A stretch of 43,330 nt of DNA from an uncultured Bacteroidota bacterium (lineage in GTDB: Bacteria > Bacteroidota > Bacteroidia > Chitinophagales > Chitinophagaceae), in assembly GCA_903839875.1 (NCBI GenBank), contig CAIMDZ010000061.1, forward strand, positions 1 through 43,330. The letters run 5' to 3'. Numbering within the stretch: position 1 is the first letter of the stretch; each line of letters opens with the position of its first letter. The notes under the pieces are model-generated. The model saw only the letters and a program-made list of their open reading frames with translations, was not told the origin of the DNA and did not search any database. The position numbers were made by a program, and so were the translations under genes. Positions 28,798 to 35,412 of the stretch are shown here, one piece after another.

Positions 28798-29070
28798 TTG
28801 GAGATTGTAAATAATAAGAAGGAGTATCGGTTTGAGATACCATTTGAGGACGGTGAATATGCCACACTTACTTACCGTTGGCTGAAGGGCAGCATGGTAT
28901 TGATGCATACATTGGTACCTGCGGCAAATAGGAAAAAGGGGGTTGGTGCTGCACTGGTAAAGTATGTTTTGGATTATGCACGGGCGCAGCACCTGAAAAT
29001 TATTGTGTACTGCCCGTTTGTGGCGAGGTACATGAAGATGCACCTGGAGTATAATGATTTAAAAGCTTGA
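28798..29070 (+). CDS. Small GNAT-like N-acetyltransferase (YjdJ type) with TTG start
   Basis: 90 residues. No ATG is available at the 5' end; the frame starts with TTG at 28798 and the protein would read MEIVNNKKEYRFEIPFEDGE. The size, the ATLTYRWLKGSMVLMHTLVP strand pair, the AcCoA-binding KKGVGAALVKYVLDYA and the final IIVYCPFVARYMKMH fit the short one-domain GNAT group (COG2388-like). The substrate is unknown. A -7 element at 28768 supports the TTG start. It is a separate unit downstream of the pst terminator. Confidence 0.8.
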   Translation: MEIVNNKKEYRFEIPFEDGEYATLTYRWLKGSMVLMHTLVPAANRKKGVGAALVKYVLDYARAQHLKIIVYCPFVARYMKMHLEYNDLKA

Positions 29071-29176: not shown

Positions 29177-31567
29177 TCAATGATTGATCACCAGCTTCTG
29201 CGTAGCAGTATTTTGCCGCGTTTTCACAGTGATCAAATACATACCCGATGGCTGCCCCGACAGGTCAACCTCAGTGGCAGACGATGTTATCGTCGCAAAG
29301 TAAACCCGCTCACCCAGCACATTACAAACAGTCAGGTTCACCTGCCCGTGATTGTCCGGCATATTTATCGCCACACGCCCTGTTGACGGATTTGGTACAA
29401 TGCCGAATGTTGCGGATGGATGAACCTGCGGCACATAGGTGGTGCCGCTAACTTTGCGTATACGGTAGTTCATCTGGTCAGTGACATACAAATTACCTGC
29501 TGCATCGAGGCTGAGGCCCGAAGGATAATAAAGTTCGGCGTTAGGAGAAAGGCCGTTATCACCTGTAAAGCCGCCGGTGAACGGGCTAAGGATGGGATCG
29601 GCACAGTTCCAGCCTTCAAAGTATTGGGCGCCATAGCCTGTGCCGGCAACAGTATAAATGTTTCCGTTGGTTGCATTCACCACCCTTATGCGGTTGTTGA
29701 GGGCATCAGAGAAGAAAACATCACCGGCTGCATTTACTGCAATGCCTGCAGGTAGATTGAGTTCAGTGGTATCGGCGATGCAGCCATCGCTAGTGTATCC
29801 GCCATAGCCATTTCCGCCGCCATAACCGTTGCCGGCTATTAAGGTGATGTTGCCGGTGGCGTCTATTTTCTTTACCTGGTTGTTGTAGGTTTCGGTATAA
29901 TAGATATTTCCTGCCACGTCTGCCGCGAGTTGATTGGCATTGACAGGGATTGTATTGATGGTAGAGATTATTCCGGCTGTGTTAATTTTTCTGATCCCGT
30001 TATTCATTGCAATAAAGAGGTTGCATGCACCGTCGAAGGTTAGCCCGGTTGCATAGACCAATTGTGCGGCGGTAGCGGGTCCGCCATCTCCCGGAACTCC
30101 GCGCCATTCGCTGCCTGCAATGGTGGTGATTGTACCTGAGATGGCATCAATTTTCCTCACCCTTGTGCCGTTATCCGTAAAATAAACGTTGTTCAAAGCG
30201 TCCGTGCAGATGCCATTTACCATATTTATTCTTGCGGCCGTAGCGGGGCCATCATCGCCGGAAAATCCCATAATCCCATTTCCACAAATGGTAATGATGT
30301 TACCCGTTGTGGCTTCTATTTTTCTTATTTTATAGTAACCATCCGCAAAATATATGTTGCCATTGCCGTCAACACAGTTATTGCCTTGCAGGTTTGGATG
30401 GATAAACGCACTCACCGCCGGGCCACCCTCACCGCCGTAATTGTCGCCATTACCGGCAATAGTGGTGATAACTGATGAAGCTTCGTCAATTCGTCTTATC
30501 CTGTTTACCGACTGGTCATTAAGATACACGTTGCCGGATCTGTCAGTACCAATGATTGTTTGATTCAGCGCCGCACCGCTTGCAGGAATATTATCGCTGA
30601 TGGACAGGCCAAGGCCGGATATGGTATTTATGGTACCGGTTGCGGCATCGACCTTCCTTATTTTACTGATTTTGACAGGCCAGTAAAGGTAACCCTGTTC
30701 AGACAGATAAATGTTTCCTGACGCATCTAATGAAATACTTGAAATGCTACTCATTGATGCCAGTGTAGCTGCGCCGCCATCACCGCTGAAGCTATCGATT
30801 CCGTTCCCTGCAATGGTATTGATTATGCCCGTTACTGCGTCTATTTTCCTGACCCGGTAATGCCGGGAGTCAGCAATAAAAACATTTCCGCTGCCATCAA
30901 CTTTTACATCAGAAGGCTGATACAACATTGAATTTGTCGCAGGGTTACCATCTCCAAGCAAGCCGGTTGTGTCTCCCCCGGCAATGGTTGTAATAATCCC
31001 TGTCGTTGCAGTTATTTTTCTTACGCGGTCGCAATCTACGATAAAGAGGTTACCGTACTTGTCGACATCAATTGCAGAAGGACCGCAGAATGAGGCAGCT
31101 GAAGCAGGTCCGTTATCGCCACCATAGCCACTGCCTGTCGTTTGCCCGGCAATAAGGTTAATATCACCGGAATAAATGTTTCCCTTCCAGATCATTGCTG
31201 CTATGCATAAGTACAGGTTACCGGAACTATCAATACACATTGCATTTGCTCCGTATGACCATGGTCCTGAAGAGGTATCGAATATTGAACTAACGATTCC
31301 AGATACTCCGTCAATTTTCCAGATGGTATTCGTGTAATTATTGTATGGGTTGTTTTTGATGTCACTGAAATAGATATTGTTTGCACGATCTATACAAAAA
31401 GGAACAGACGAACGATTGATAATTGAGGCGGTGGCAGGTCCACCATCACCGTTGCTGGTATACTGACCCTTCCCCGCAACAGTAGTAATTATTCCCTGCG
31501 CAGATATTGCAGAACTAAAGAAAGTAATTGCAATTATAGATAAAACAAGGATAGAGCGAAAATGCAT
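29177..31567 (-). CDS. Secreted NHL-repeat protein with T9SS sorting domain
   Basis: 796 residues. The signal peptide is FRSILVLSIIAITFFSSAIS with AQ after it. Residues 25-700 hold about a dozen NHL-type repeats with the running pattern ITTIAGNG...GDGGPAT.A, then (V/I)..D..GN(V/I)Y..D....RIRKID..TG. NHL repeats form beta-propellers that often bind carbohydrate, protein or nucleic acid. From about 725 a type A T9SS domain follows (FGIVPNPSTGRVAINM, LTVCNVLGERVYF, LSGQPSGMYLITVK, TATQKLVINH). It is a cell-surface or secreted protein of unknown ligand, transcribed alone. Confidence 0.88.
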   Translation of the reverse strand: MHFRSILVLSIIAITFFSSAISAQGIITTVAGKGQYTSNGDGGPATASIINRSSVPFCIDRANNIYFSDIKNNPYNNYTNTIWKIDGVSGIVSSIFDTSSGPWSYGANAMCIDSSGNLYLCIAAMIWKGNIYSGDINLIAGQTTGSGYGGDNGPASAASFCGPSAIDVDKYGNLFIVDCDRVRKITATTGIITTIAGGDTTGLLGDGNPATNSMLYQPSDVKVDGSGNVFIADSRHYRVRKIDAVTGIINTIAGNGIDSFSGDGGAATLASMSSISSISLDASGNIYLSEQGYLYWPVKISKIRKVDAATGTINTISGLGLSISDNIPASGAALNQTIIGTDRSGNVYLNDQSVNRIRRIDEASSVITTIAGNGDNYGGEGGPAVSAFIHPNLQGNNCVDGNGNIYFADGYYKIRKIEATTGNIITICGNGIMGFSGDDGPATAARINMVNGICTDALNNVYFTDNGTRVRKIDAISGTITTIAGSEWRGVPGDGGPATAAQLVYATGLTFDGACNLFIAMNNGIRKINTAGIISTINTIPVNANQLAADVAGNIYYTETYNNQVKKIDATGNITLIAGNGYGGGNGYGGYTSDGCIADTTELNLPAGIAVNAAGDVFFSDALNNRIRVVNATNGNIYTVAGTGYGAQYFEGWNCADPILSPFTGGFTGDNGLSPNAELYYPSGLSLDAAGNLYVTDQMNYRIRKVSGTTYVPQVHPSATFGIVPNPSTGRVAINMPDNHGQVNLTVCNVLGERVYFATITSSATEVDLSGQPSGMYLITVKTRQNTATQKLVINH

Positions 31568-31657: not shown

Positions 31658-32467
31658 CTACTCCCCCTTCTTCAGCATACTCTTCATCTCCATCACATCT
31701 GTTTCCAGGTCGGCGAGGCGATGGTACACTTCGGCGGGCTCGCTGAAGTCGCTGCTTATTTTCATGCGGCCATACCATACTTCTTTTACGTCTTCGGGAT
31801 CAATTTCAACTGTAGGGAATTCGTGCCTGTGAGCTATTGTATCTGATTTGAGGTACAATTTTCCACGCTCTGCCAGGCGGTTGATGACACGCTTTACGGC
31901 AACACCACCGGTATGTACGATCACGTAAACACGGTTGTCGCGGATCTTATCAAGGCCATCTACCCACTCGCCGATGATACGGTCGCCGTTGAGCACGTTT
32001 GGCGCCATGGATGGGCCTTCTACTTCGAACATGCGGTAAGTAGAATTGTTCAGACCCGGCAAACGGAACGTAGGAAGCGTCTCCATAAATTCGGCATCCC
32101 CATAACCAAGCAGGTAACCTGCACGCGCTTTTACCGGCACATAAATAATGTTGTCATTGCCACTATTATCCACAGCAATAACACGGGGTACTCCGCTAAA
32201 AGCGTGGTTTTTGCGGGAGTAAGCGGCCCTTAACATTAAGTCCTTGTCATTGGATTTCGATTCAGCCGTCAGGTTTTTTGACAGCAGTTCGTCCAGCGTT
32301 ACTCCAAAATAATTGGAAAATGTGAGTAAAGTTTCCAGATTTGGTTCGCTGATTGCGGCCTCATAATTGGCGATGGTTGTGCGCCCAATACTGACCTCAG
32401 AGCTAAGCGCATCCTGCGTTTTGCCCGCTTTCTTTCTAAGAAATTTTAAATTGCCTGCGAAGTTCAT
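31658..32467 (-). CDS. CI/LexA-like repressor: XRE HTH plus S24 self-cleaving peptidase
   Basis: 269 residues. An XRE helix-turn-helix lies at 5-62 (NLKFLRKKAGKTQDALSSEV, then GRTTIANYEAAISEPNLETL). The C-terminal half is an S24 domain with an Ala-Gly cleavage site in KARAGYLLG (near 115), the catalytic Ser in VEGPSMAPNVLNGD and the catalytic Lys in GGVAVKRVINRL. Such proteins repress phage or SOS operons and cut themselves on RecA-ssDNA. A coiled tail (ADLETDVMEMKSMLKKG) may help oligomerise. It is divergent from the MuB-like operon, and a palindrome overlapping that operon's -33 box is a likely operator. Probably a prophage-type switch. Confidence 0.9.
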   Translation of the reverse strand: MNFAGNLKFLRKKAGKTQDALSSEVSIGRTTIANYEAAISEPNLETLLTFSNYFGVTLDELLSKNLTAESKSNDKDLMLRAAYSRKNHAFSGVPRVIAVDNSGNDNIIYVPVKARAGYLLGYGDAEFMETLPTFRLPGLNNSTYRMFEVEGPSMAPNVLNGDRIIGEWVDGLDKIRDNRVYVIVHTGGVAVKRVINRLAERGKLYLKSDTIAHRHEFPTVEIDPEDVKEVWYGRMKISSDFSEPAEVYHRLADLETDVMEMKSMLKKGE

Positions 32468-32471
32468 GTTG

Positions 32472-32479
32472 CAAATTTA
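32472..32479 (-). promoter_or_regulatory. -7 element of the repressor gene
   Basis: TAAATTTG on the minus strand matches TAnnTTTG and ends five bases before the ATG, so the repressor mRNA would be leaderless or nearly so. No TTTG at proper -33 spacing is seen. Confidence 0.45.
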
Positions 32480-32489
32480 AGTTTATTTA

Positions 32490-32531
32490 TCCACAAAATT
32501 TGGAAATGTCAGAAATAATGGATTATCTTTG
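32490..32531 (+). promoter_or_regulatory. Promoter and probable operator of the MuB-like operon
   Basis: TTTG (32499-32502), a 21-nt spacer and TATCTTTG (32524-32531) match the Bacteroidota promoter. The 15-bp near-palindrome TCCACAAAATTTGGA (32490-32504) covers the -33 element, where a bound repressor would block the rightward promoter and sit beside its own. Confidence 0.7.
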
Positions 32532-32666
32532 CCATGTTATTTCGGATATTCCAGGAACAAAGATAATAATAAAAATGATTTATGCCAAATATTTTGTCTA
32601 TAAAAATTAAAATACAACTTCAAGCTAACCCCAAACACTATCTGTAACTTCTAAAAACAATATATC

Positions 32667-33518
32667 ATGACAAACGAACAAAAGAAACAAGTAAGGGATG
32701 CACTGGTACGCTATGTGCAAAAATTTGAAACACAAACCAGGGCTGCCGAAAGCCTGGAGGGTGTAGGCATATCCACCATATCGCAGGTAAAGCACAACAA
32801 TTGGGAACTGATCAGTGACCGGCTATGGCATAATATAGCCAGGCAGGTAGGATTTTATTGCGGTGAGTGGCAGCCTGCCGATACCAGCGCACACCTGCTG
32901 CTGCGCATACTCTTCAGCGATGCACAGCATTATGCAATGACGTATGGTATAGCCATTGGCGAAGGCTTGGGTAAAACATTTACGGCAACCAGGTATGTGC
33001 GCGAAAATGACCACACTTACTACCTGGCAGGAAATAAAGAGCATAACCGCAGGACATTTATCACCGCCTTGCTGCATGCTGCAGGGATAGCTGCAAAAGG
33101 TACCATGCCCGAAATGATACAGGCATTTACTGACCACATAGGCAACCGGGAGGAATCGCTGGTGATAGTGGATGATGCGGAAAAGCTGAAAGACAGGGTG
33201 CTGCATTTACTGGTATTTCTTGTCAACAGCCTGTCGGGTAATTCGGGGATGGTGATGCTGGGTGGTGATCAGCTGCGCACAAGGATCATTGAAGGTGTGC
33301 GCATGAAGAAAACCGGGTTTGAGGAAATATATAAAAGCATATGGCAAAGGTTCATAACACTTGGCTATCCCGGTCCGAAGGATGTGGAACTGGTATGCAG
33401 AGCAAATGGTGTATATGATGAAGCAATAATCAACCATATAAAAGAGGAAAGCAAAGGCAACCTGCATGCGGCAACATTGTTGATACAGGAGGCGAATGGG
33501 ATGAGGAGGGCAGCATGA
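32667..33518 (+). CDS. MuB-like AAA+ ATPase (transposition target regulator type)
   Basis: 283 residues. An N-terminal helix-turn-helix (about 10-55, TRAAESLEGVGISTISQVKH) is followed by an AAA+ core: Walker A GEGLGKTF (near 99), Walker B SLVIVDDAEKL (near 168), sensor-like MVMLGGDQ, and a C-terminal helical lid. Order, length and the HTH match phage Mu B, which binds DNA cooperatively and directs the MuA transposase to targets. The first P-loop glycine is Ile (IGEGLGKT against GNPGVGKT in MuB, from memory). No MuA gene lies beside it, so its partner is missing or elsewhere. First gene of an operon under a divergent repressor. Confidence 0.75.
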   Translation: MTNEQKKQVRDALVRYVQKFETQTRAAESLEGVGISTISQVKHNNWELISDRLWHNIARQVGFYCGEWQPADTSAHLLLRILFSDAQHYAMTYGIAIGEGLGKTFTATRYVRENDHTYYLAGNKEHNRRTFITALLHAAGIAAKGTMPEMIQAFTDHIGNREESLVIVDDAEKLKDRVLHLLVFLVNSLSGNSGMVMLGGDQLRTRIIEGVRMKKTGFEEIYKSIWQRFITLGYPGPKDVELVCRANGVYDEAIINHIKEESKGNLHAATLLIQEANGMRRAA

Positions 33519-33545
33519 TTGGTTGACAAGTTGATTGGTAGACAG
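33519..33545 (+). repeat. TTGGTTGACAAGTTGATTGG repeat, third copy type
   Basis: It lies directly after the stop of the MuB-like gene and belongs to the same low-complexity family as 6925-6996 and 40811-40888. It makes the next frame look open from 33519, although the real start is at 33606. Confidence 0.6.
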
Positions 33546-33605
33546 GAGACAAAGTTATACGCGAACAATTTTTACATTTTTTTAGAAAAATTAAATAGTT
33601 ATTTT

Positions 33606-34055
33606 ATGATCTACTCACCAGGATTAAGAACAAGTACGGCGCGGAGTATAGCAAGATCTGCGCAGCAAAAGATCAGGACAAAAACAGGAATGAATGTGGC
33701 TATGTTATTGTGCCCGATAGAAACTGAAATTTTCAGAACACCTGAACGGATGTTGCAGGTAATAGCGCTTAGCCTTGATATGCAACCGGAACTCTATAAA
33801 CTGAAAACACGTAAACGTGAGATTGTGGAACTTCGGTTTATAGCAGCTATGTTCATCAGGGTGCATTTCCCGGATGTGACACTAATGCAGATTGCCAATT
33901 ATTTCGGCGGGCAGGACCATTCGTCTATCATCAGCGGACTGACAAGGGCCAATGACCTGATCTATGCAGGTGACCAGCAATTTATAGATAAGTACAACAC
34001 AGCACTGGCGGCGGTAAATGTATGGCTGAATAAAGTAAGCAGCATAGCTGCGTAG
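33606..34055 (+). CDS. Stand-alone DnaA domain IV-like DNA-binding protein
   Basis: 149 residues from Met at 33606. The frame extends to 33519, but that part is repeat DNA with a TTG start. Residues 78-127 match DnaA domain IV: TRKREIVELRFIAAMFIRVH, then LMQIANYFGGQDHSSIISGL, equivalent to the DnaA signature ending GGRDHTTVxxA. The AAA+ domain of DnaA is absent. The N-terminal 70 residues have no known motif (SIARSAQQKIRTKTGMNVAM). It could bind DnaA-box-like sites to recruit or inhibit replication, as a phage or domesticated factor. HdaB of alphaproteobacteria is a comparable domain-IV-only protein. It lies 87 bp after the MuB-like gene, probably in the same operon. Confidence 0.82.
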   Translation: MIYSPGLRTSTARSIARSAQQKIRTKTGMNVAMLLCPIETEIFRTPERMLQVIALSLDMQPELYKLKTRKREIVELRFIAAMFIRVHFPDVTLMQIANYFGGQDHSSIISGLTRANDLIYAGDQQFIDKYNTALAAVNVWLNKVSSIAA

Positions 34056-34241
34056 TGGCCAAATGTATGATTCAATGCGACAAAGAAAAAGTTTCACGCA
34101 AAGGGGTATCGAAAACTCACTTTTTACCCTCTGAGAAATTTAGACAGGATAACAAACAAACATTTATTTATTAACACAAAACCCTAATGGCACGTATTTT
34201 TTGGGAAGATTATGTAATCCGTGGGTTAGAAAAAATAAAAT

Positions 34242-34751
34242 ATGAAACCAAACAAACAAAAGTTAAAAAATGGAATAACCGCCGAACAATTTGAGGCAGC
34301 CTTGACAGCCTATGCGGTAGCTGAGCAGCGCGAAGGGGAAATAAACAAGCTGGTGGAAGCGGAAGTAAACGACCTGATGGATCATCACAAGGATGAATTG
34401 CTGAACCTTGCACAGACAAAACTGATGGCCTATGAAACTGCCAGGAATTATTGCCTGGCCAATAAGGAAACGCTGTTCAGCAGGCGCAGAAGCATTGGGA
34501 CCCTGCATGGGGTGGCAGGTTTCAGGCTGGGTACGCCGAGGTTAAAGACCCTGAAGGGCCGCAACTGGAATACCGTGCTGCAGGAACTGAAAGACAAATT
34601 ACCGGCTTACATCCGATTGCATGAAGAACCGGCTAAAGATTTACTGCTGGCTGACAGGAATAAGGAGCATGTGGCACCATTATTGATGCAGATAGGTATA
34701 GAGGTAGTGCAGGACGAACTGTTTTACATAGAAGCTAAAAAAGCGGCATAA
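34242..34751 (+). CDS. Mu Gam-like DNA-end-binding protein
   Basis: 169 residues. The match to the host-nuclease-inhibitor Gam of Mu-like phages is good: a long N-terminal helix (EQFEAALTAYAVAEQREGEI), then the beta segment RRRSIGTLHGVAGFRLGTPR, followed by LKTLKGRNWNTVLQEL and a C-terminal domain. Gam is a bacterial Ku-like protein that coats double-strand DNA ends and protects them from RecBCD-type nucleases. It lies in the operon with the MuB-like and DnaA-IV-like genes. A 187-bp gap separates it from the latter and contains only a 35-codon frame of doubtful value. Confidence 0.9.
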   Translation: MKPNKQKLKNGITAEQFEAALTAYAVAEQREGEINKLVEAEVNDLMDHHKDELLNLAQTKLMAYETARNYCLANKETLFSRRRSIGTLHGVAGFRLGTPRLKTLKGRNWNTVLQELKDKLPAYIRLHEEPAKDLLLADRNKEHVAPLLMQIGIEVVQDELFYIEAKKAA

Positions 34752-34790
34752 AATAAAAATATTTAATCATTCTTTAAATTAAAACCCGTT

Positions 34791-34925
34791 ATGAAGACAA
34801 GAAGGGCATTGAAGCATGAAATGTTGCTGACATTTATGGAAAATGCAAGAACACAACAACGTAAAAAAAAGCCAGCCCCCGTGGGCCCTAAATTTCTGAG
34901 AACACTATTGTCGTTCTTTATCTGA
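34791..34925 (+). CDS. Small basic ORF, 44 aa
   Basis: The frame from ATG 34791 to TGA 34925 encodes KTRRALKHEMLLTFMENART, then a QQRKKKP stretch and a hydrophobic end (FLRTLLSFFI). It is strongly basic. It lies 39 bp after gam and its stop is directly followed by the ATG of the next tiny frame. Small basic ORFs are common in phage early regions. No family recognised. Confidence 0.45.
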   Translation: MKTRRALKHEMLLTFMENARTQQRKKKPAPVGPKFLRTLLSFFI

Positions 34926-35021
34926 ATGGATAAAGTTTTGGTTCACAATGCCATCGGAAAATTTAACAGTTATCACTCCTCGCAGGAAACAATTAACGCG
35001 TTCCATGGCATGATTATTTAA
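34926..35021 (+). CDS. Tiny ORF, 31 aa, abutting the previous one
   Basis: ATG at 34926 directly follows the TGA of the 44-codon ORF (TGAATG). It encodes MDKVLVHNAIGKFNSYHSSQ followed by 11 more residues. The back-to-back placement suggests translational coupling, but the frame is short enough to be chance. Confidence 0.25.
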   Translation: MDKVLVHNAIGKFNSYHSSQETINAFHGMII

Positions 35022-35062
35022 AACCTAAGGATAATTAATTCAAACTACTAAAATCAACTATT

Positions 35063-35353
35063 ATGATACGAACTGCATACGTGGCCGGGAAAATTACAGG
35101 GCTTCCGAAATCACATGTAACAGACAAATTCAACCTGGTGGCAAACCAACTGATAAATATGGGTTACCAGGTAATAAACCCAATAGGGATAAATGATGAG
35201 ACGCGGCCATGGGATGAGGCAGTGCGTAGCGAGATAAAGAGAATGCTGGAATGCGATGAGGTGCATATGCTGCCCGGCTGGCAGGAAAGCCGCGGCGCCC
35301 AACTGGAACGCGACATAGCCCTGAGGCTGGGTATGGAAGTGGTGTACCATTAA
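35063..35353 (+). CDS. DUF4406 protein (nucleoside deoxyribosyltransferase-like fold)
   Basis: 96 residues. The N-terminus AYVAGKITGLPKS and the C-terminal DEVHMLPGWQESRGAQLERD with ALRLGMEVVYH are the hallmark of DUF4406, a short relative of nucleoside 2-deoxyribosyltransferases. It is common in phages and prophages, often near replication or modification genes. A nucleotide-related role is likely but unproven. It is the last gene before a strong terminator, which fits a five-gene operon that begins with the MuB-like ATPase. Confidence 0.88.
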   Translation: MIRTAYVAGKITGLPKSHVTDKFNLVANQLINMGYQVINPIGINDETRPWDEAVRSEIKRMLECDEVHMLPGWQESRGAQLERDIALRLGMEVVYH

Positions 35354-35375
35354 AGAATGTGTGGATAAGATGAGA

Positions 35376-35412
35376 CGATGCGTGTGATTTTTGTCATGTG
35401 CATCGTTTTTTT
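35376..35412 (+). terminator. Intrinsic terminator ending the Mu-like operon
   Basis: CGATGC (35376-35381) pairs with GCATCG (35400-35405), continued inward by several G-T pairs, and is followed by seven T residues. Confidence 0.85.

Follow-up and report, generated by a model that had tools for sequence, protein, structure and literature searches.

A Mu-like early operon without a transposase that has probably joined the DNA-damage response of a Chitinophagaceae lineage

What does the early operon of a Mu-like phage do on a bacterial chromosome when no transposase accompanies it? The question is raised by a locus at 31658-35353 of a 43,330-nucleotide contig (CAIMDZ010000061.1, our C61; hereafter the window) of the 5.29 Mb draft genome GCA_903839875.1, from an uncultured Bacteroidota bacterium of the Chitinophagaceae. 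An S24 repressor gene (CI) on the minus strand is divergent from genes for MuB, a stand-alone DnaA domain IV protein (DnaA-IV), Gam, a 44-amino-acid (aa) open reading frame (ORF) and a DUF4406 protein, and all frames are intact; we refer to the repressor and its operon as the module. A first-pass annotation had proposed either a domesticated DNA-end-protection or replication-control module, or a defence locus, under SOS-type control. Our comparisons make it likely that an immobilised Mu-like phage early operon became part of the host DNA-damage response. Domestication under SOS-type control is well supported, because the module is vertically inherited, is under purifying selection, occupies a shared site and has operators in common with translesion-polymerase genes. 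Taken as a whole, the earlier interpretation is partly supported, and the role of the repressor as a stand-in for LexA is a point beyond it.

The genes named by the first-pass annotation are present, with Pfam or PHROG matches for the repressor, MuB, DnaA-IV, Gam and DUF4406 (Table 1), and MuA is absent as claimed, since a MuA profile had no match anywhere in the window. Mapping of profiles onto 62 loci (the window and L052-L112) separated two types. In type A (14 loci), a MuA-like protein of 659-735 aa is encoded 5' of MuB, and the profiles found, in the same gene order, CI in 8, DnaA-IV in 9, c4 (a conserved gene of about 105 aa) in 5, Gam in 4 and DUF4406 in 3 of the 14; a short Ner-like ORF usually follows CI, and MuA sits between the repressor and MuB. 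Type B, to which the window belongs, consists of CI, MuB and DnaA-IV, usually with c4, Gam and the small family c6 and sometimes with DUF4406, and is without Ner or MuA. Examples of MuA-bearing loci with early genes in phage order are L076, L079, L085 and L086, each holding part of the set. Because MuA-bearing elements hold homologues in the same order, the module can be regarded as a Mu-like early operon minus its transposase, and sequence comparison matches it to a Mu-like early region without Ner and MuA. Winogradskyella phage Peternella_1 and Porphyromonas phages also have a repressor facing an early operon, the MuB of the former being 33% identical to the module MuB and the Gam of the latter 38% identical to the module Gam; however, Bacteroidota Mu-like phages have MuA (and the Porphyromonas record also structural genes), whereas the module is without MuA and chromosomally fixed.

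The first-pass annotation had asked whether the gene order ever occurs with MuA in other Bacteroidota, and a pattern-based scan with a MuB alignment, covering one genome per species for 84,980 species, bears directly on this. It returned 50 loci, 41 of type B and nine distant; MuA was found in all nine distant loci and in none of the 41 type B loci, in the DNA examined around each. The type B records are titled Bacteroidetes, Chitinophagaceae, Sphingobacteriales, Bacteroidia, Flavipsychrobacter or Taibaiella, and a single cultured isolate is represented, Flavipsychrobacter stenotrophus RB1R16 of the Chitinophagaceae (locus L255 on NZ_PPSL01000003.1); the 41 loci are partly redundant, because many are contigs already counted among our G-numbered genomes. 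Overall, none of 86 module loci had a MuA match, a total in which many contigs are counted twice and in which 56 loci have at least 5 kb on both sides. The local MuA profile was built from 14 loci, so its matches there arise by construction, and the independent MuA cases are the nine distant loci. PHROG 310 ("transposase") matched all three MuA-like proteins scanned and Mu-transpos_C one of two. Pfam PF09299 was also tried as a MuA probe over the genus and was set aside as uninformative, as it had no match even in 14 control genomes.

Three other loci touch on this relationship. The window's own genome carries a separate Mu-like element (L073, contig C125), which encodes a MuA-like protein of 696 aa and a MuB sharing 29% identity with that of the module. 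Locus L087 (genome G008, contig C41) has CI, c4 and a Gam 27% identical, with no MuB or MuA match, and is either another reduced Mu-like early region or a damaged prophage. In L080 (G293), MuB is only 31% identical to the others, and CI, DnaA-IV, c4 and Gam are 75, 57, 67 and 63% identical, respectively, a pattern suggesting that MuB may have been exchanged.

Within the genus of the window, MuB occurs in 30 of 35 genomes (23 of the 25 with completeness of at least 90% and contamination of no more than 5%) and a close Gam in 27 of 35, and the module is mostly single-copy per genome. Its tree and the rpoB tree, compared over 24 genomes, have 11 of 21 splits in common, against a mean of 0.25 and a maximum of 3 with permuted labels (1000 trials). 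Of 46 module genomes, some compared over short contigs only, 19 have a GNAT acetyltransferase gene near CI, at distances of 15-2594 bp; 15 of these belong to the genus, three to genus g43 and one to genus g34. In 10 of the 15 genus genomes, phoU and pstB are found on the far side of the GNAT gene. The window has the longest of these distances, 2594 bp, because a gene for a 796-aa NHL-repeat protein with a sorting domain (29177-31567) intervenes. Nine genomes that form a clade hold the module at another position, eight of them with common other neighbours and the ninth on a 4.6 kb contig. Gene order is kept across several genera, the Walker A motif is kept in 44 of 44 MuB relatives, and the G.DH core of DnaA-IV is kept in 43 of 44.

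Selection was estimated from the ratio of nonsynonymous to synonymous substitution rates (dN/dS, NG86 method) in up to 13 close pairs, with fewer where a gene was missing. The ratio was 0.003-0.077 for CI (12 pairs), 0.040-0.146 for MuB (13 pairs), 0.009-0.199 for DnaA-IV (13 pairs), 0-0.134 for c4 (12 pairs) and 0.021-0.160 for Gam (11 pairs), and it ranged from 0 to 0.47 for the tiny c6 (10 pairs). This check, proposed with the first-pass annotation, shows that the main genes are not evolving neutrally. Neither of the two outcomes named there as refuting was therefore observed, as none of the 41 close loci has MuA in the DNA examined. CI is the slowest-evolving gene in most pairs, and the best-kept genes are CI and DnaA-IV. 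The view that the locus is not obviously decay therefore stands, because MuB is widespread, the module shares its tree with rpoB, its genes are under purifying selection, and a flanking gene is common to three genera.

The control region between CI and MuB is alike in the 44 genomes compared, which bears out the earlier claim that the operon has an operator of its own. Three sites of the form YCAA-N5-TTGR (O1a, O1b and O2) are arranged around a rightward TATCTTTG and, in the window, a leftward TATCTTTG, which we take to be the Bacteroidota-type -7 promoter element. The 44 intergenic regions together hold 111 sites with at least 9 of 10 fixed positions and an A/T-rich centre, and 24 of the regions have a match to the strict pattern, KYCAA-W5-TTGRM. 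A DnaA box, TT[AT]TNCACA, lies near O1a in 29 of 44 regions, compared with 0.4% of letter shuffles. The box of the window at this place is a perfect TTATCCACA; the window holds five such boxes, three of them in the module region, against 0.51 expected. Within the CI gene of the window there is also a perfect match to the operator form, TCCAAAATAATTGGA (32303-32317), and strict sites occur within CI of G012 and G025 as well; these may merely reflect the encoded peptide.

The same strict pattern occurs at translesion-polymerase genes. In each of ten genus genomes tested, a strict site lies 92-134 bp 5' of the IMS domain of a Y-family polymerase of about 480 aa, and none was found at the second, shorter Y-family polymerase (0/8). 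These counts use 24 IMS matches, a 40-residue IMS piece at a contig end (L185) being excluded. The window's genome holds 11 strict sites in 5.29 Mb, so that a chance match in a given 250 bp would be expected about once in 2000. A strict site was also found at imuA, about 800 bp 5' of imuB, in two of five genomes (ImuA E 9e-18 in one). The imuB genes without a strict site (G006, G022 and G028) have an adjacent S24 paralogue, and those with a site (G012 and G025) have none. The paralogues themselves (L156 in G006, L157 in G028 and L159 in G022) are 29-36% identical and carry neither CTAA-N5-TTAG nor the strict module operator at their own start. Labels of UmuC for the polymerase of about 480 aa and DinB for the shorter one were considered and dropped, as the longer protein, compared in G000 only, came nearest to the Pol IV models of NCBIfam but below their cut-offs; the term Y-family polymerase is used instead.

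If this repressor governs translesion polymerases, is it the LexA of these bacteria? The SOS response of Bacteroidetes is run by phage-CI-like S24 repressors that recognise CTAA-N5-TTAG or GGA-N5-TCC (PMC8565304). The module CI resembles these non-canonical LexA proteins, as portrayed there, in its CI-like helix-turn-helix (HTH) domain and S24 peptidase with cleavage residues, in a fixed 4-N5-4 palindrome in its own promoter, in sites at translesion-polymerase genes and in having one main copy per genome. Of 44 relatives, 43 have the Ala-Gly cleavage site and the Ser and Lys residues and one is truncated where its contig ends, and an orthologue occurs in all ten genus genomes tested (73-81% identical in the other nine). 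It differs in its motif, YCAA-N5-TTGR rather than either motif given in that text, in its position in front of a Mu-like early operon, and in belonging to another clade, with 34-37% identity to LexA-type genes.

In a survey of the family, 178 of 195 genomes had a homologue of the window's CI, and among the matches listed most were 35-43% identical and 250-280 aa long. These LexA-type genes look like the published kind, because all eight checked carry CTAA-N5-TTAG at their own start. A LexA-type query found an orthologue in five of five controls (one being its own genome, the others 71-76% identical). In none of 35 genomes with a module-type CI was a LexA-type gene found, nothing exceeding 43% identity; these 35 include G008 and G023, which are without MuB, and G076, G123, G138 and G165, which are counted on the strength of their CI match alone. 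A repressor tree was built from 43 of 56 rows, the 13 dropped being eight copies of the same gene, two near copies (L287 and L289) and three weak or HTH-only matches (L077, L079 and L088). In this tree, the module CIs fall together with three CIs of phage type from the same genus (99/92), one of which, L076, is placed among the module CIs on a long branch; a second clade (99/98) unites the LexA-type genes with the imuB-linked paralogues. BLAST aligns the module CI with the phage CI of L075 at 48% identity over nearly its full length; other phage CIs are 31 to 47% identical or match only at the C terminus. The module CI is thus not orthologous to the LexA-type gene of the family. We conclude that it is probably the host SOS repressor, and the simplest reading of these sequences is that the SOS role passed to the repressor of a Mu-like phage, with the LexA-type gene being lost either before or after.

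How such a module might work can be outlined from its parts. Upon DNA damage, RecA filaments would trigger self-cleavage of the repressor, which would release the repressor gene itself, the Y-family polymerase and the operon of MuB, DnaA-IV, c4 and Gam, and in some species also imuA-imuB-dnaE2; damage induction of the module is a prediction. The roles of the operon proteins are suggested by their families and are less sure. DnaA-IV may occupy DnaA boxes and restrain new rounds of replication: it keeps the G.DH core and has no ATPase domain, so competition with DnaA at the boxes is the most direct guess, and since a DnaA box lies in its own promoter, it could feed back on its own expression. 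Gam may cover broken DNA ends, and MuB, with no transposase to serve, may be a partner that coats DNA in an ATP-dependent manner. Mu Gam shields DNA ends, and together with host ligase it can take part in end joining (Bhattacharyya et al., 2018, as cited in PMC8987985). The module Gam belongs to the same family of end-binding proteins; however, in that secondhand account Gam is a phage protein studied in E. coli, whereas here it is encoded by a chromosomal gene behind an SOS-type operator. More tentatively, we consider it possible that a single Mu-like prophage supplied both the SOS master repressor, displacing LexA, and an SOS operon in which DnaA-IV forms a replication checkpoint and Gam and MuB protect broken DNA.

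Several observations weigh against an SOS role of this kind. Among 30 module loci of the genus, c4 was not found in three (the window included), and Gam was not found in two and is a stub in one; MuB of G017 has an in-frame stop; and in G008 and G023, MuB, c4 and Gam were not found, with CI, DnaA-IV, c6 and DUF4406 retained. Gam, c4 and MuB are therefore each lost or damaged in some genomes, and their roles are not essential. The three sites of the window match only 8-9 of the 10 fixed positions. The strict pattern is not strongly enriched genome-wide, with 11 occurrences in the window's genome against 8 for the reversed control, and 53 against 28 in six genomes, G020 falling below its control; the 11 sites comprise one at the polymerase, one within CI, seven within ORFs and two intergenic without a near gene start. 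Furthermore, recA has a strict operator in only one of ten genomes. The idea of DnaA boxes as targets is weaker than at first sight, as the promoter box is missing in most of one clade and few loci hold further boxes beyond it. In the repressor tree, several of the phage rows sit on long branches. A side observation concerns recA itself: TGTGGATATC, which comes close to a DnaA box read on the opposite strand, lies 5' of recA in nine of the ten genomes (L204-L213, counted by eye). The tenth, G020, is without this element, and G020 alone has a strict CI operator at that place.

The losses of Gam, c4 and MuB, together with the in-frame stop and the slow evolution of CI, could also be explained if the locus were a decaying, functionless prophage remnant in which the repressor alone is kept as an SOS regulator and the operon hitchhikes. 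We regard this as quite unlikely, given that every close pair computed gives dN/dS values far under 1 for MuB, DnaA-IV, c4 and Gam, that Walker A is intact in all 44 MuB relatives, and that gene order persists across genera. A mobile satellite, or a recent prophage fragment moving with MuA supplied in trans, would account for the more than one chromosomal position within the genus and would find a MuA-like gene elsewhere in the window's genome, but such an element is hard to reconcile with mostly one copy per genome, a tree largely congruent with rpoB, a site common to two other genera and purifying selection, and this explanation is very improbable.

Another proposal is that selection retains the module because it gives immunity to Mu-like phages, with incoming relatives silenced by the repressor and their transposition perhaps disturbed by MuB without MuA. 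Support comes from the Mu-like element L075 (G013, same genus), which has two CTCAA-N5-TTGG sites between CI and Ner and a repressor 48% identical to that of the window, and several module genomes (G000, G005, G013, G022 and G250) carry MuA elements. However, none of the other six phage loci scanned shows this pattern between CI and Ner, the module is found in genomes that also hold MuA elements, and immunity leaves unexplained both the operators at the Y-family polymerase in all ten genomes and the missing LexA-type gene; we consider it unlikely. The defence locus suggested by the first-pass annotation found no support in PADLOC, which gave only HTH-type matches for the repressor and none for MuB, DnaA-IV, c4, Gam or DUF4406, although a defence role of an undescribed kind is possible. 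A module recruited into the host DNA-damage response thus remains the reading that we prefer.

The features of the locus are collected in Table 1. The conserved start of DnaA-IV among the relatives compared is 33606, as against a mechanical TTG start at 33519. The terminator claimed for the operon can be recognised as a stem-loop followed by a T run, which was not among the results of a simple terminator scan. The model of the c4 family is fairly confident (mean pLDDT, predicted local distance difference test, 80.5) and shows beta-alpha-alpha repeated twice; it had no PDB match at E <= 0.001, and the sequence had no match in PHROGs, NCBIfam or PADLOC. The 5' neighbour of the module is the NHL-repeat protein, whose sorting domain is of the secretion type, and the 3' neighbour is a VWA-domain protein, so the earlier statement that metabolic genes follow directly does not hold. 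The two genes beyond the VWA gene, judged from their sequences without a database search, look like an acetyltransferase and an RND/MMPL-type transporter. The window genes adjoining the module are not phage-like; no search aimed at phage ends or structural genes was made.

Table 1. Genes and predicted regulatory elements of the module and its flanking marker in the window
Feature	Position	Strand	Evidence
GNAT acetyltransferase gene (C8), flanking marker of the shared site	28798..29070	+	Pfam Acetyltransf_CG
CI-type S24 repressor, candidate SOS repressor	31658..32467	-	Pfam HTH_3 E 2.8e-12 and Peptidase_S24 E 3.1e-7
Perfect DnaA box TTATCCACA, overlapping O1a	32487..32495	+	sequence match
Operator O1a, TCCAC-AAAAT-TTGGA core	32489..32504	+	9/10 fixed positions of strict pattern; predicted
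Operator O1b, GTCAG-AAATA-ATGGA	32508..32522	+	8/10 positions, weak in window; stronger in many relatives; predicted
TATCTTTG, putative -7 element, MuB operon	32524..32531	+	sequence
TATCTTTG, putative -7 element, CI	32558..32565	-	sequence
Operator O2, GCCAA-ATATT-TTGTC	32584..32598	+	9/10 fixed positions; predicted
MuB-type AAA+ ATPase, 283 aa	32667..33518	+	AAA_22 E 2.8e-11; PHROG 296 "DNA transposition protein" E 7.9e-30
Stand-alone DnaA domain IV protein, 149 aa	33606..34055	+	Bac_DnaA_C E 2.7e-10
Mu Gam family (Ku-like) DNA-end-binding protein, 169 aa	34242..34751	+	Phage_Mu_Gam E 9.4e-22
Small conserved protein, family c6, 44 aa	34791..34925	+	between Gam and DUF4406
DUF4406 protein (nucleoside 2-deoxyribosyltransferase-like), 96 aa	35063..35353	+	E 5.3e-24
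Intrinsic terminator-like stem-loop, then T run	35372..35409	+	-19.2 kcal/mol, z -5.48

Parts of this picture have precedents. The idea that a phage repressor can be captured to regulate the SOS response has already been put forward (PMC8565304, legend of Figure 9), and the main text of that paper does not mention "MuB", "Mu Gam" or "transposition protein". FddR of Francisella is likewise an S24 repressor that was recruited from a phage and stands beside a small, divergently oriented DNA-damage unit; however, in the accessible part of that report its palindrome is GTG-N11-CAC, its divergent gene is of unknown function and no Mu-like operon is mentioned (PMC13148647). The yfdQRST genes of an E. 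coli cryptic prophage are likewise kept on the chromosome and can restrain DnaA-dependent initiation; YfdR binds the DnaA protein (PMC4776307), whereas the idea for the module, which is conjectural, is that DnaA-IV competes for DnaA boxes. Our literature search, which covered few subscription journals, listed no paper that deals with this operon or that treats MuB, Gam or DnaA-IV as SOS genes. Units of the kinds seen in Francisella and in the E. coli cryptic prophage are already known, and this operon seems new within the literature searched.

The module is informative because the repressor still fronts the phage's own early operon, in several genera, with the LexA-type gene of the family missing, which opens the takeover of an SOS response by a phage switch to direct testing. 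It suggests that proteins with which a phage replicates and protects its DNA ends can be turned to the damage response of the host, and it points to a possible replication checkpoint consisting of no more of DnaA than its DNA-binding domain. If this is true, a captured phage switch with its lytic operon still attached would represent a step that has been proposed for the origin of LexA-like regulators.

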